Assembly: GCA_022564935.1 (NCBI GenBank)
Contig: JADFKM010000038.1
Span: 1 to 19,812 of the forward strand
DNA from: Candidatus Dadabacteria bacterium
Lineage (GTDB): Bacteria > Desulfobacterota_D > UBA1144 > Nemesobacterales > JADFKM01
Length of the DNA: 19,812 nucleotides
Direction of reading: 5' to 3'
Shown here: one piece after another, positions 2,248-13,183 of the stretch
Layout: the number at the start of each line of letters is the position of its first letter
How positions within the stretch are numbered: the first letter of the stretch is position 1
Translations under genes and position numbers: made by a program
Notes under the pieces: generated by a model
Seen by the model: only the letters and a program-made list of their open reading frames with translations
Told to the model about the DNA's origin: nothing
Database searches by the model: none

Positions 2248-2532
2248 ATGGACAAAGAAACGGCGGTTAATAGAGAGAAGGTCAAAAACTTCTTGAGCCG
2301 GCGCTATGCGAGCTTTCCGGGAATGCCGATACCAGGGGAGTTATTAAACGAGGCGATGAGCTACATTCCCGAGAGGCTTGCCGGGAAGTTCAGCGTCCTG
2401 TACGTCCAGAGCCCGGCGGACTGGGAGCGTGTGTCTGGCGATATCGGCACCGCTATAGAGGAGTGGAACGCAGGCAAGCGCAGCGAGGGTAAGCTGCGCT
2501 TCGTTAAGGTGATTCTCGATACCTGTATTTAG
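2248..2532 (+). CDS. Small protein of unknown function
   Basis: This 94-residue protein has no family I recognise. It starts MDKETAVNREKVKNFLSRRY, is hydrophilic, and has a proline-rich turn (FPGMPIPGELL, about residues 23-33) between predicted helices. It ends in a hydrophobic strand-like stretch, KVILDTCI. There is no signal peptide or membrane segment, and the single cysteine is second from the end. Codon use has the GC-rich third positions typical of the neighbouring host genes, which argues for a real gene. An AAGG lies about 8 bases before the ATG. It follows the aldolase gene in the same direction after about 236 bases in which I see no other feature. Confidence 0.55.
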   Translation: MDKETAVNREKVKNFLSRRYASFPGMPIPGELLNEAMSYIPERLAGKFSVLYVQSPADWERVSGDIGTAIEEWNAGKRSEGKLRFVKVILDTCI

Positions 2533-2628
2533 CGCTTTGCGGCGTTCGCTGTATCAGAAGATTATTTCTAAGCATGGAATGGCTCGACTAGTCCGATACT
2601 GGGCATGAGCTGGGCTTGAAGTTACGTT

Positions 2629-3339
2629 TTAACTCATGGGAACCTCTATTATTAGAACATCCGATTTTTTAGTCGTTGTAAGATTAATAAGTTCCGAATC
2701 GGTTATTGCAGCGGCGTCTCCGTCTTCGAGTTCATACCCGTCTATGGTAATTCCGCCTTTAATAGTGAAAACGTAAACTCCTAGTTTGGATTCACCGGTC
2801 TTGTGAGAGACCGAAATTCCCTCGTCCAGACTCCCTACGAAAAAGCCGGCATCCTGGTGAATGTAAATGGTCTCATCACTCTTTATGCCTGATACAACTG
2901 GGAGTAAAGCGTTTTTCCTCATCTCGGCTGGAAATGACTTTTGCTCATGTCTAGGCTCGATATCTTTTTCTTTAGTGTGAACCCAAATTTGAAGAAAATG
3001 CACAATGTCGGAGTTTGAAGCGTTGTGCTCGGAATGCTCGACACCGCGCCCTGCCGACATGGCTTGTACATCTCCGGCGGGAATTATTCCACTGTTGCCC
3101 ATGCTGTCTTTATGCTCCAAGGCGCCCTCGAGCACGATGGAGACAATTTCCATGTTTTTGTGATGGTGTATTCCGAAACCGCGTCCGGGCTCCACTATGT
3201 CCTCATTCAGGACACGAAGCAAGCCAAAGCCCTCTCGATTGGGGTTGTAGTGGTTGGCAAAACTAAAACTGTGCCTGCTATGCAGCCATCCGTGTTCGGA
3301 AATTCCTCTCTCGGATGAAGGGTGGATTTCAATTATCAT
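2629..3339 (-). CDS. Pirin family protein (possible quercetinase-like cupin)
   Basis: The protein has 236 residues and the bicupin pirin layout. It begins with the family motif GWLHSRHSFSFANHYNP (residues 17-33). The N-terminal cupin supplies metal ligands His58 and His60 (in GFGIHHHKNMEIVS) and His102 and Glu104 (in GRGVEHSEHN), matching the four ligands of characterised pirins, so an iron or similar metal site is expected. The second cupin is shorter and less conserved, with GVYVFTIKGGITIDGYELEDG, as in YhhW-type members. Pirins of this type include quercetin 2,3-dioxygenases, but most have no known physiological substrate. It is cytosolic. It lies 92 bases downstream of the asparagine-synthetase-like gene on the same strand and may share its transcript. 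Confidence 0.92.
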   Translation of the reverse strand: MIIEIHPSSERGISEHGWLHSRHSFSFANHYNPNREGFGLLRVLNEDIVEPGRGFGIHHHKNMEIVSIVLEGALEHKDSMGNSGIIPAGDVQAMSAGRGVEHSEHNASNSDIVHFLQIWVHTKEKDIEPRHEQKSFPAEMRKNALLPVVSGIKSDETIYIHQDAGFFVGSLDEGISVSHKTGESKLGVYVFTIKGGITIDGYELEDGDAAAITDSELINLTTTKKSDVLIIEVPMS

Positions 3340-10105: not shown

Positions 10106-10204
10106 ATGAGCGGCACGGATTATTCGAAGTTCCCAAAGACAAAAGCACCTATTTCAGCAATAATTCTCACCTATAACGAGGAATTGAACATCAAGCATGC
10201 TTTA
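10106..10204 (+). pseudogene. N-terminal stump of a GT2 glycosyltransferase
   Basis: Thirty-three residues, with ISAIILTYNEELNIKHAL at the end, are the opening strand and helix of a family 2 (GT-A fold) glycosyltransferase of the kind that begins with ILTYNEE. It starts 7 bases after the galE stop, so it was probably the next gene of the polysaccharide operon. At about base 10193-10204 the sequence becomes the reverse strand of an IS1-type transposase. The same frame continues to a stop at 10352-10354, but that tail is only antisense of the transposase. The nucleotide-sugar DXD motif and the rest of the enzyme are missing. Confidence 0.8.
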
Positions 10205-10338
10205 CCTATATCAATTAAGAGTTTTGTAACGGTACCCTTTGCCGCTCCCGTCATTCGGGATGTAGCCCTTATGGAATTACCCTCAACTAAAGCTGATATT
10301 ATTTGTATTTGTTTTTCTATACTTGACCGCTCAAGCAT
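10195..10338 (-). pseudogene. IS1-type transposase, N-terminal fragment
   Basis: The minus strand encodes 48 residues starting at an ATG at 10338, with SIEKQIQIISALVEGNSIRA, then TSRMTG and VTKLLIDIGKAC. This matches the N-terminal helix-turn-helix region of IS1-family transposases, where EGNSIR-S/A-x-x-R-x-T-G, VTKLL and GKAC are conserved. It breaks off after GKAC at the join with the GT2 stump, so the catalytic DDE-type core is gone. Usual IS ends cannot be seen at the break, which means it is a rearrangement and not a simple insertion. The fragment is divergent from the P63C gene, and the spacer between them contains several CAAGCA/TGCTTG copies. Confidence 0.8.
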
Positions 10339-10370
10339 TGTCAAGTATATTTAGCAAGCAATAGTATTTC

Positions 10371-10433
10371 TTGACATTATATGCTTGCATCAGTTATAAT
10401 GCAAGCATATAATATTTATGGAGATGCTTGCAT
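10371..10433 (+). promoter_or_regulatory. Strong promoter with three palindromic operator-like sites ahead of the P63C gene
   Basis: A perfect TTGACA (10371-10376) and TATAAT (10395-10400) are 18 bases apart. The 10-mer ATGCTTGCAT occurs at 10381-10390 (in the spacer), as its reverse complement ATGCAAGCAT at 10399-10408 (over the -10 end), and again at 10424-10433 (overlapping the start codon). A second -10, TATAAT at 10408-10413, is 17 bases from TTGCAT (10385-10390). GGAG at 10420-10423 is the ribosome binding site. The arrangement is that of an autorepressed gene: bound protein would block polymerase and perhaps translation. Looser CAAGCA copies lie at 10332 and near 10354. Confidence 0.65.
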
Positions 10434-11460
10434 GAAAGAAGCTGATAAGAAAAATAGATCAAAAGGGGGCTATGCACGAGCAGAGGCGCTAACGCCTGAA
10501 CGACGTAAAGACATAGCAAGAAAGGCCGCATTGAGCAGATGGGATTCAGATGTGCCACGGGCAGAATTTGAAGGCGATTTCAAAATCGGAGAAAAGTTAA
10601 TATCTGCTGCTGTTTTGCTAAATGGTAAGAGGTTATTGTTTCAATCTACCTTTTTGAAAGCCTTAGGGCGTTCTCGCTCTCCAAAGGCTGGAACTGGCGT
10701 ACTTAGCACTGTCGACGGAATCCCGTTTTTTTTACAAGCAGAAGCATTAAAACCTTTTATTTCCGAGGAGTTATCACAATCGACCACTCCAATATTTTTT
10801 AAATTGAAAAGCGGTAAACGCATGGTTGGTTATGATGCCGAATTATTGCCACAGGTTGCCGAAGTATATCTAAAGATGAGAGATTCTTGTTTATCCGAGG
10901 GCAAAAAAGTACCTAGTCAATATCAACATATTGTTAGAGCATGTGATTTTATCATGAGAGGTTTAGCTCATGTAGGCATTGTAGCCCTAGTCGATGAAGC
11001 CACAGGTTATCAAGAGGTAAGAGATCGCCTTGCCCTACAGGCAATTCTCGACAAATATCTGACCGATGATTATGCAAAATGGACTAAGATATTTCCTGAT
11101 GAATTTTATAAAGAGCTTTTCCGCTTAAAGGGTATATCTTACCCCCCTTCTGCGCATGGACAAAAACCTAGTTACGTCGGTCACTGGACAAATTTTATAA
11201 TTTATTCACGATTGGAAGCAGGAGTATTAAAAGAACTTAAAATTAAAAATCCTCGGTTACTTTCTGGTAATAGAGCAAGAAAGTACCATCAACATTTAAC
11301 AAGGGATTTTGGTCATCCTGAACTTCAAGAATTGTTATCAAATACGATATTTCTAATGAAAGGATGTGTTGACTGGAATGATTTTGAGTGGAAACTCAAC
11401 CGTGCGAGACCTCAATATGGTAACACTCTATTGTTAGATTTTAAAGAACCACAAAATTAA
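10432..11460 (+). CDS. P63C-domain protein with N-terminal KGG/ERRK motif
   Basis: The protein has 342 residues. The ATG at 10432 is chosen because GGAG lies 8 bases upstream and the promoter and operators occupy the preceding in-frame codons. The N-terminus is basic and carries SKGGYARAEALTPERRKDIA followed by RKAALSRW, a helical motif repeated in the neighbouring small gene. The C-terminal half resembles the phage P63C domain, with the signature HVGIVALVDEATGYQEVRDR and FPDEFYKELFRLKGISYPP. P63C proteins are found in phages, prophages and genomic islands, and their biochemical role is not established. There is no signal peptide or membrane segment. Codon use is AT-rich compared with the cof genes, fitting horizontal arrival. 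Its stop shares the bases TTAA with the stop of the convergent gene. Confidence 0.8.
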   Translation: MKEADKKNRSKGGYARAEALTPERRKDIARKAALSRWDSDVPRAEFEGDFKIGEKLISAAVLLNGKRLLFQSTFLKALGRSRSPKAGTGVLSTVDGIPFFLQAEALKPFISEELSQSTTPIFFKLKSGKRMVGYDAELLPQVAEVYLKMRDSCLSEGKKVPSQYQHIVRACDFIMRGLAHVGIVALVDEATGYQEVRDRLALQAILDKYLTDDYAKWTKIFPDEFYKELFRLKGISYPPSAHGQKPSYVGHWTNFIIYSRLEAGVLKELKIKNPRLLSGNRARKYHQHLTRDFGHPELQELLSNTIFLMKGCVDWNDFEWKLNRARPQYGNTLLLDFKEPQN

Positions 11461-11690
11461 CGACCCCACCTTGCTTTAGCCGCTTTCTGGGCAATTTCCT
11501 TGCGTCTTTCAGCTGATAGCTTCTTGGCTCTAGCCTTGCCGCCCTTGAGACCCCCCAGCCTTCCAAGAGCTACAGCGGCAGGGTTCTTTTCAGGTTTTTC
11601 TTCGGACGGTTCTTTCTCGGTGGTTTCTTCGACTATAATCTTAGCTATTACATTTACGTCATCAGACTTCTTTCTTGAGCGCTTAGGCAT
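11457..11690 (-). CDS. Small basic protein with KGG/ERRK/RW motif
   Basis: The protein has 77 residues in three parts: a basic start (MPKRSRKKSDD), an acidic middle (ETTEKEPSEEKPEK), and a basic alanine-lysine C-terminus LKGGKARAKKLSAERRKEIA followed by QKAAKARWGR. The last part matches the N-terminus of the P63C-domain protein on the opposite strand at 18 of 28 positions by eye. Such motif-only proteins are common as small hypotheticals and are sometimes labelled histone-like because of the A/K composition; the function is unknown. A role in binding nucleic acid or pairing with the P63C protein through the shared motif is inference. The two genes converge and overlap by 4 bases. No Shine-Dalgarno precedes the ATG, so translation may be leaderless. 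Confidence 0.65.
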   Translation of the reverse strand: MPKRSRKKSDDVNVIAKIIVEETTEKEPSEEKPEKNPAAVALGRLGGLKGGKARAKKLSAERRKEIAQKAAKARWGR

Positions 11691-11774: not shown

Positions 11775-12056
11775 ATGGGTGGAGTTAAACGTTTAATGGA
11801 AGAACAAGAAGGTAAACAAAATGTTGCGATTCAAATCGCACTTGAAGCTGGTGTCTTGAAATCATGTGAGTATCACGAAGATTTTATCTTCGATACTGGT
11901 AAAGACATCCTAAATGCCTACATGCTGGCTAATGCAAAATACACTGAAGACCATTACATTGATGTGTTCAACAATAGGAAGGAAATGACGGATTTTATAA
12001 AAGACGTTGTTGAAGAACACCTTCCTGTAGAGTGTCCTTTCTGTGCGAAGCTCTGA
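11775..12056 (+). CDS. Unknown small protein, conserved-looking, with C-terminal CPFC
   Basis: The 93-residue soluble protein begins MGGVKRLMEEQEGKQNVAIQ and continues with ALEAGVLKSCEYHEDFIFDT. It ends with a helical segment (NNRKEMTDFIKDVVEEH) and CPFCAKL. The arrangement C-x-x-H near residues 31-34 and C-x-x-C near the end could hold zinc, but only the positions are seen. Proteins with the E-E-Q-E start and A-L-E-A-G-V-L-x-x-C-E segment occur, to my recollection, as hypotheticals in genomic islands of proteobacteria; no function is known to me. GGAGG at 11763-11767 is a good ribosome binding site and a promoter lies upstream. It is divergent from the small KGG protein. Confidence 0.75.
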   Translation: MGGVKRLMEEQEGKQNVAIQIALEAGVLKSCEYHEDFIFDTGKDILNAYMLANAKYTEDHYIDVFNNRKEMTDFIKDVVEEHLPVECPFCAKL

Positions 12057-12057
12057 A

Positions 12058-12216
12058 ATGAATGAAAGACAAAACGTTTCCTTAAAAAAATTCAAATTGA
12101 CCCACTACCCAAAGCCGGGCGGTTTGAATTTAGAGCTTGAATCGGTCAACATTAATCCCGTTTCACTAGCCCAATCTGCTTCGCGGTATGATAAGAATTT
12201 CCTCCCCCCTGGGTAA
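12058..12216 (+). CDS. Possible 52-residue protein
   Basis: An ATG one base after the stop of the preceding gene opens 52 codons starting MNERQNVSLKKFKLTHYPKP and ending KNFLPPG. There is no ribosome binding site of its own, but the closeness would permit translational coupling. No family is recognised and the length is within reach of chance, so this is a candidate only. Confidence 0.3.
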   Translation: MNERQNVSLKKFKLTHYPKPGGLNLELESVNINPVSLAQSASRYDKNFLPPG

Positions 12217-12351: not shown

Positions 12352-12759
12352 TTAGCCTACCAGATGGAATATTTTCGATAGCAATTCCTTAGAAGTATTG
12401 CTCCCCTTATAGACATAGCCTTTAACACCGTTGTCAAAGCAGTAAGGCAGCAACTCGTCGCTTCCGGTTAACATTATCACGGGAATCCTTTTTAACCCCG
12501 GTGTTCTTTTCAGCAGCTTCAGCAGTACGAGCCCGTTCATGCCGGGCATGAATATGTCGAGAATGATTACCTTCGGCTTGAAGTCGAGGATGATTTTAAG
12601 GGCTTCTTCCCCATTGCTAGCAGTCTTTACATAAAACCCGTTCTTGGTCAGGTATCCTGAATAGAGGTTTCTCAGTTTATCGTTGTCTTCCGCCAACAAG
12701 ACCTTTACCGCCGGAGGAGGTATGAGTAAAGAGCGCTTTGGTTTTTTTGATCTGATCAC
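12352..12759 (-). CDS. Stand-alone response regulator receiver (CheY-like)
   Basis: The protein has 135 residues made of one receiver domain after a short basic leader (MIRSKKPKRS). The acidic pocket is Glu24/Asp25 in LLAEDND, the phosphoacceptor Asp68 in VIILDIFMPGMNG, the switch threonine Thr98 in PVIMLTG, and the conserved lysine Lys118 in YVYKGSN. There is no output domain, so it should act by protein contact like CheY or Spo0F. The GTG start has AGGGGG about 9 bases upstream. A very similar gene lies 73 bases upstream on the same strand, and no histidine kinase is in the window. Confidence 0.9.
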   Translation of the reverse strand: MIRSKKPKRSLLIPPPAVKVLLAEDNDKLRNLYSGYLTKNGFYVKTASNGEEALKIILDFKPKVIILDIFMPGMNGLVLLKLLKRTPGLKRIPVIMLTGSDELLPYCFDNGVKGYVYKGSNTSKELLSKIFHLVG

Positions 12760-12832: not shown

Positions 12833-13183
12833 TTATCTGACAAGTGTCGAGATTTTAGTCACCAGTTCCTTACAAGTGTTGCTCCCTTTATTTATGTAAC
12901 TGGATGCTCCGTACTCGAAACATTTTGAGAGGATATCTTCGTTTGCAGTGAGCATTATCACGGGAATTTTGCACAGACCGGCGGTGCCTTTTATGATATT
13001 TAGCAATGTTAATCCGTCGATAACCGGCATGGTTATGTCCAGTATGATAATTTCCGGGGTATAGTTTTCCAAAACGTTGAGGGCATCCTGACCGTCGCTT
13101 GCGGTCACCACATCGAAGTCGTTCATGATCAGATACATTCCGTACAGGTTTCTCAGGTGGTCATTGTCCTCGACCAGCAACAC
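12833..13183 (-). CDS. Second stand-alone response regulator receiver
   Basis: The protein has 116 residues, only a receiver domain. Residues are Glu5/Asp6 in LLVEDND, phosphoacceptor Asp49 in IIILDITMPVIDG, Thr79 in PVIMLTAN and Lys99 in YINKGSNT. It shares about half its positions by eye with the regulator downstream, including the unusual KGSNT-x-KEL ending, so the two come from a tandem duplication. The GTG start at 13183 is only two codons after an in-frame stop and has AGGA just upstream, so no longer start is possible. It probably shares a transcript with the downstream copy. The signal and partner kinase are unknown. Confidence 0.88.
   Translation of the reverse strand: MLLVEDNDHLRNLYGMYLIMNDFDVVTASDGQDALNVLENYTPEIIILDITMPVIDGLTLLNIIKGTAGLCKIPVIMLTANEDILSKCFEYGASSYINKGSNTCKELVTKISTLVR

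Follow-up and report, generated by a model that had tools for sequence, protein, structure and literature searches.

An operator-like array at a transposon-borne P63C gene and a candidate residue-to-base code in its KGG domain

Phage Cro and CI, Arc-Mnt and the C proteins of restriction-modification systems are autorepressor/operator modules of mobile elements. The P63C gene analyzed here likewise has several short inverted sites over the -35/-10 region of its own promoter, and it differs from those modules in three respects: a KGG domain of ~30 residues that is absent from Pfam, a very variable half-site arrangement, and a half-site base predicted by a single residue. Its product is a clear member of the P63C domain proteins (PF10546; namesake p63 of Myxococcus phage Mx8), which were reportedly defined by Iyer and colleagues in 2002. 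Genes of this family are common in temperate phages, often beside an immunity repressor or integrase, and a subset of the family lacks both the KGG head and the operators. The central core of the protein shows a fold likeness, at middling scores, to the KilA-N/BRO-N/APSES-type DNA-binding proteins of phages and large DNA viruses; unlike in those proteins, the covarying specificity lies in the KGG helix and not in the core. KGG stress-repeat proteins (PF10685; GsiB/YciG) are similar only superficially, through a glycine-containing repeat, and the KGG domain gave no match to the PF10685 model even at E up to 10. A literature search, whose coverage excluded most subscription papers, found nothing relevant on the motif, on P63C biochemistry or DNA sites, or on a KGG N-terminus or DNA binding by it, and no report of any P63C biochemical activity. 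Here we describe an array which is very probably the operator of an autoregulated gene, with the P63C protein predicted to bind it via its own KGG domain; both the binding and the repression are inferred.

The window (the whole stretch of 19,812 nucleotides analyzed, from a Candidatus Dadabacteria bacterium) holds three exact copies of ATGCTTGCAT within 53 bp, all predicted operator sites: site 1 (10381-10390, plus strand; core TGCTTGCA at 10382-10389) in the promoter spacer, site 2 (10399-10408, minus strand; core 10400-10407) overlapping the end of the -10 element, and site 3 (10424-10433, plus strand) overlapping the ATG start codon at 10432. The two forward copies and one reverse copy thus lie where an earlier note on this DNA had placed them, over the spacer, the -10 and the ATG. 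The same note's near-consensus promoter was also borne out: the predicted sigma-70 promoter (10371-10400, plus strand) matches at 12/12 consensus bases, with TTGACA at 10371-10376, TATAAT at 10395-10400 and 18 nt between them. On the other hand, the second overlapping promoter that it proposed (TTGCAT-17-TATAAT) is weak, having just 3/6 matches in the -35, and was not called. Its looser CAAGCA copies running toward the transposase were accounted for in part by a degenerate fourth site, AGCAAGCA (10353-10360, minus strand; upstream of the -35), which is an exact TGCAAGCA in the relatives L011 and L013; the rest proved to be a different dyad, CTTGACCGCTCAAG (10322-10335).

Across the family, inverted sites are most often spaced 18 nt apart, as sites 1 and 2 are here; the position of site 1 is conserved in L011, L012 and L013, and a start-codon site is present in 14/32 site-bearing clusters. 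Sites 1 and 2 together form a perfect inverted repeat (10376-10413; 15-bp arms at 10376-10390 and 10399-10413, 8-nt spacer). So perfect a 15-bp dyad might instead work at the RNA level (hairpin, attenuator or riboswitch), but we give this next to no credence: transcription is expected to start downstream of site 1, the 5' transcript shows no folding beyond that of shuffled sequence (z +1.2), no Rfam match was found, and half-site orientation and spacing are variable.

According to the earlier note, ATGCTTGCAT being frequent genome-wide would have refuted its reading. The word is not frequent: the 1.99-Mb genome has four copies, at chance level (composition expectation 4.2), three of which are in the array, and the Poisson probability of three within 53 bp is ~4e-7. 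The fourth copy (L139) is inside an apparent coding sequence, which we take to be murJ-like from reading alone, without a database search. A genome-wide regulon was considered and rejected: TGCTTGCA has 55 copies versus 29 for a reversed-pattern control, the 10-mer has four, and no further arrays were seen.

The P63C gene (10432-11460, plus strand) meets the test of family membership (PF10546 E 8e-28; 97.3 bits versus a gathering score of 26.1). Its protein is laid out as a KGG domain (residues 10-38), a KilA-N/BRO-like core (43-190) and the P63C domain (205-298). In the AlphaFold2 model (pLDDT 89) the KGG domain (10459-10545, plus strand) consists of two N-terminal helices (10-19 and 22-38), the second of which holds both residue 28, here Ile, and residue 33. 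A fold search with the core gave a best Z of 6.2 to a baculovirus Orf22 domain and a Z of 3.0 to Mbp1, and DdrC was also among the fold matches; in a viral structure library the core matched BRO proteins near 1e-3, and Mx8 p63 was among the best structural matches of the P63C protein. Foldseek against the PDB found no match below 0.001, the KGG domain reached no Pfam family above cut-off, and PADLOC found no defence family.

P63C genes were gathered from genomes, phages, plasmids and viral contigs and clustered at 70% protein identity, and the upstream 150 nt (KGG-bearing clusters) or 250 nt (KGG-less clusters) were scanned. Start codons were chosen by script, phage contigs dominate the sample, and one locus with a broken frame (L497) was left out. 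The earlier note had asked for shared palindromes upstream of homologous P63C genes, and these were found: TGCTTGCA/TGCAAGCA stands upstream of 35/66 KGG-bearing clusters, versus 0/24 KGG-less clusters within 250 nt. The KGG clusters hold 95 sites in total, versus a mean of 1.8 and a maximum of 6 after shuffling; 30 of the site-bearing clusters have at least two sites and 18 at least three. Three further KGG-less P63C loci, from cellular genomes (L492, L493 and L496), likewise had no TGCTTGCA in the stretch read. The layout of sites is the same in L011, though its protein is only ~30% identical and its genome unrelated. Comparison across the clusters shows that the motif belongs to the KGG domain.

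The exact 8-mer is absent from about half of the KGG clusters and GCTTGC from a quarter; in KGG loci without GCTTGC (17 loci), a 6-mer recurred three times in 53%, versus 7% after shuffling, which suggests that the recognized word differs there. In favor of the link between motif and domain, a protein-blind DNA pattern search of viral contigs for TGCTTGCA-N10-TGCAAGCA returned 20 places, five of them directly upstream of P63C-KGG genes; the other 15 have no P63C gene. Seven of the latter, in apparently related phages, lie just upstream of a tRNA-like gene (L015:12668-12693, and L018, L022, L026, L030, L032 and L034). A scan of viral contigs with the single protein P0001 gave no match, whereas profile scans did.

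As the array sits in a typical bacterial promoter, a conserved host regulator could be imagined to bind it. This is hardly credible: the motif is found in hosts as distant as Deinococcus, Gordonia, Acinetobacter, Salmonella and Nitrospirota, it vanishes with the KGG domain, and the 10-mer is at chance level genome-wide.

Some of the gathered genes have suggestive neighbors. On the Burkholderiales plasmids L039 and L040, the P63C gene has a helix-turn-helix gene and a gene of the Abi family as neighbors, with three to five TGCTTGCA sites in front of it. The P63C genes of L046, L050, L051 and L053 (lambdoid and P22-like phages and prophages) adjoin the CI/LexA-type repressor gene or the Arc/Ant immunity genes, a setting that suggests they are expressed during lysogeny.

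The identity of residue 28 was compared with the third base of the half-sites. Under I, L or V at this position the sites read C-T-TGC (51 T and 2 G; 2 with none or tied), while under S or A they read C-G-TGC (0 T and 10 G; 1 tie), giving a Fisher probability of 5e-10 when relatedness is ignored. Among all KGG positions residue 28 was the best predictor (z 14.3), followed by residue 20 (z 10.0). On a tree built from the protein without its KGG domain, residue 28 changes at least seven times and the third base nine times. Among independent pairs taken from supported branches, the base went with the residue in 4.9/5 on average and never the opposite way; the relatedness-aware sign test gave a p of 0.06, which is the floor with five pairs. 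The rule was derived from the same data that give it most support. In loci fetched after it had been noted, I/L28 had T in 7/7 and S28 had G in 3/3 (3 ties), and A28, an extension of the rule, had G in 3/3; these later loci are few and some S28 ones look closely related. Residue 28 and the third base of the half-site hence change together, repeatedly on the tree, as this comparison of aligned proteins and upstream regions shows. As for the first base, A accompanies V33 (6/6) and G accompanies A/G33 (50/55, so exceptions exist); this second rule is just suggestive, because residue 20 predicts the base about as well.

On these grounds we judge it likely, with somewhat less assurance than for the operator itself, that the ~30 residues of the KGG domain form a sequence-specific DNA-binding domain not described before. 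In phages, plasmids and transposons it would occur either by itself or joined to a P63C/KilA-N-like core, and its residue-to-base code would be simple: I/V/L28 reads CTTG, S/A28 reads CGTG, and the first base depends in part on residues 33 and 20.

An IS1-like transposon carries the P63C gene as a passenger. In the window this element retains just one end, AATTCAAATTGACCCACTACC (12089-12109, minus strand); GTAGTGGGTCA is found once in the genome. Within it are an N-terminal remnant of the transposase (10198-10326, minus strand; start codon lost), the P63C gene, a small stand-alone KGG protein gene downstream of it (11457-11690, minus strand) and a gene related to lambda ea8.5 (11775-12056, plus strand; PF20735). 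A glycosyltransferase-like reading frame (ISAIILTYNEELNIKHAL; 10106-10199) is cut off where the transposase remnant starts, which suggests that the element inserted into this frame or next to it. Adjoining the element, on the minus strand, are two single-domain response regulators in tandem (12352-12759 and 12833-13183).

An intact relative in another genome (L138:1164-4708; 3545 bp) has inverted ends GGTAGTGGGTCAGTTTGAAA and an 8-bp target duplication ACGACTTC, and so meets the criterion for an IS1-family transposon, namely inverted ends with a short target duplication. Its gene order is membrane protein, transposase (intact, 2449-3276), P63C and small KGG. The transposase matches the NCBIfam IS1 model at E 3e-15 and 56.5 bits; because this is below the family cut-off of 100, we call the element IS1-like. 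A further difference from the IS1 family is the presence of regulatory passenger genes in the element. The membrane protein (314 aa) has no Pfam match above cut-off. The P63C protein of L138 is ~30% identical to that of the window, and its promoter has the same array: TGCAAGCA, TTGACA, TGCTTGCA, TATAAT, TGCAAGCA, and then TGCAAGCATG at the start. Elements of Nitrospirota (L012 and L013) have three or four of these sites and keep the 18-nt distance between sites 1 and 2.

These contexts bear on the idea that the P63C protein binds the array as a centromere or replication iteron, autoregulation being secondary. P63C genes do occur on small plasmids, and arrays of four or five sites exist; but the P63C genes of the window and of L138 sit in a transposon, and the sites, mostly inverted pairs, overlap with start codons and elements of the promoter, which makes a centromere or iteron quite improbable. 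Operators of an autoregulated P63C gene remain our reading of the sites.

Small, nearly KGG-only proteins have a promoter dyad of their own, C[T/G]TGASCGNTCA[A/C]G. It takes the T..A form at stand-alone loci with I28 (L012, L450 and L452) and the G..C form at those with S28 (L380, L392 and L447), while L417 (I28) has an imperfect match, C..A. The stand-alone KGG genes are a second protein context in which the same T-to-G switch can be read from promoter and protein. The small KGG protein of the window has I28/A33, and its model has the same two helices (48-57 and 60-75). The transposase promoters of the element, including that of the window's remnant, carry the T form of the dyad: in the window this is CTTGACCGCTCAAG, which is unique in the genome (wider dyad 10318-10327/10340-10349), and the transposase promoters of L011, L012 and L013 carry the same dyad. 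CTTGACCGCTCAAG is therefore a probable site of the small KGG protein, in the absence of binding data.

Relatives of the small KGG protein gave no match in plasmids. In viral contigs, small KGG genes are often found right after a transposon end, GGTAGTGGGTCAGTTTGAA, located ~50-100 nt before the reading frame (L395, L397, L398, L400, L402, L407, L424, L426, L432, L436, L448 and others), so that elements of this family seem to be common in contigs of phage-like character.

The earlier note had left the regulator of the array undecided between the two KGG proteins. The small one, encoded in the same element and having the same helix with I28/A33, could bind the TGCTTGCA array and cross-regulate the P63C gene. 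We consider this unlikely: TGCTTGCA arrays occur at phage and plasmid P63C genes without an annotated small KGG gene (as judged from annotation tables only), the dyad at stand-alone KGG genes is another one, and it is the residue of the P63C protein itself with which the base covaries. The KGG domain of the P63C protein is thus the favored reader of TGCTTGCA, and the small protein fits the dyad C[T/G]TGA-SCGN-TCA[A/C]G.

In the mechanism we propose, the KGG domain would be a compact two-helix, helix-turn-helix-like module reading half-sites [G/A]C[T/G]TGC, here TGCTTGCA. Occupying the spacer, -10 and start-codon sites, the P63C protein would block RNA polymerase and hold its own expression low; repression is proposed because sites at these three places leave polymerase no room. 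The small KGG protein of the element would read the related dyad in the promoter of the transposase and, in relatives, in its own promoter as well; by inference, we suggest that it restrains the transposase. The locus meets the criterion for an autoregulatory repressor, in that conserved sites overlapping the gene's own promoter are tied to a putative DNA-reading domain, with binding and repression inferred. Autoregulation through a KGG protein, which the earlier note put forward, gains from the motif tracking the KGG domain in phages and plasmids and from the covariation with residue 28, while the binding and the sign of regulation stay unproven. Direct binding, repression rather than activation, the oligomeric state and the benefit to the element are all inferences, no binding or expression data being at hand.

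With this proposal, the P63C family gains a testable role, that of self-limiting DNA-binding regulators, with their DNA sites named. If a DNA-reading module predictable from one residue holds true, it would aid the annotation of many unknown phage and transposon genes, and the KGG module could serve as a compact programmable DNA-binding domain.
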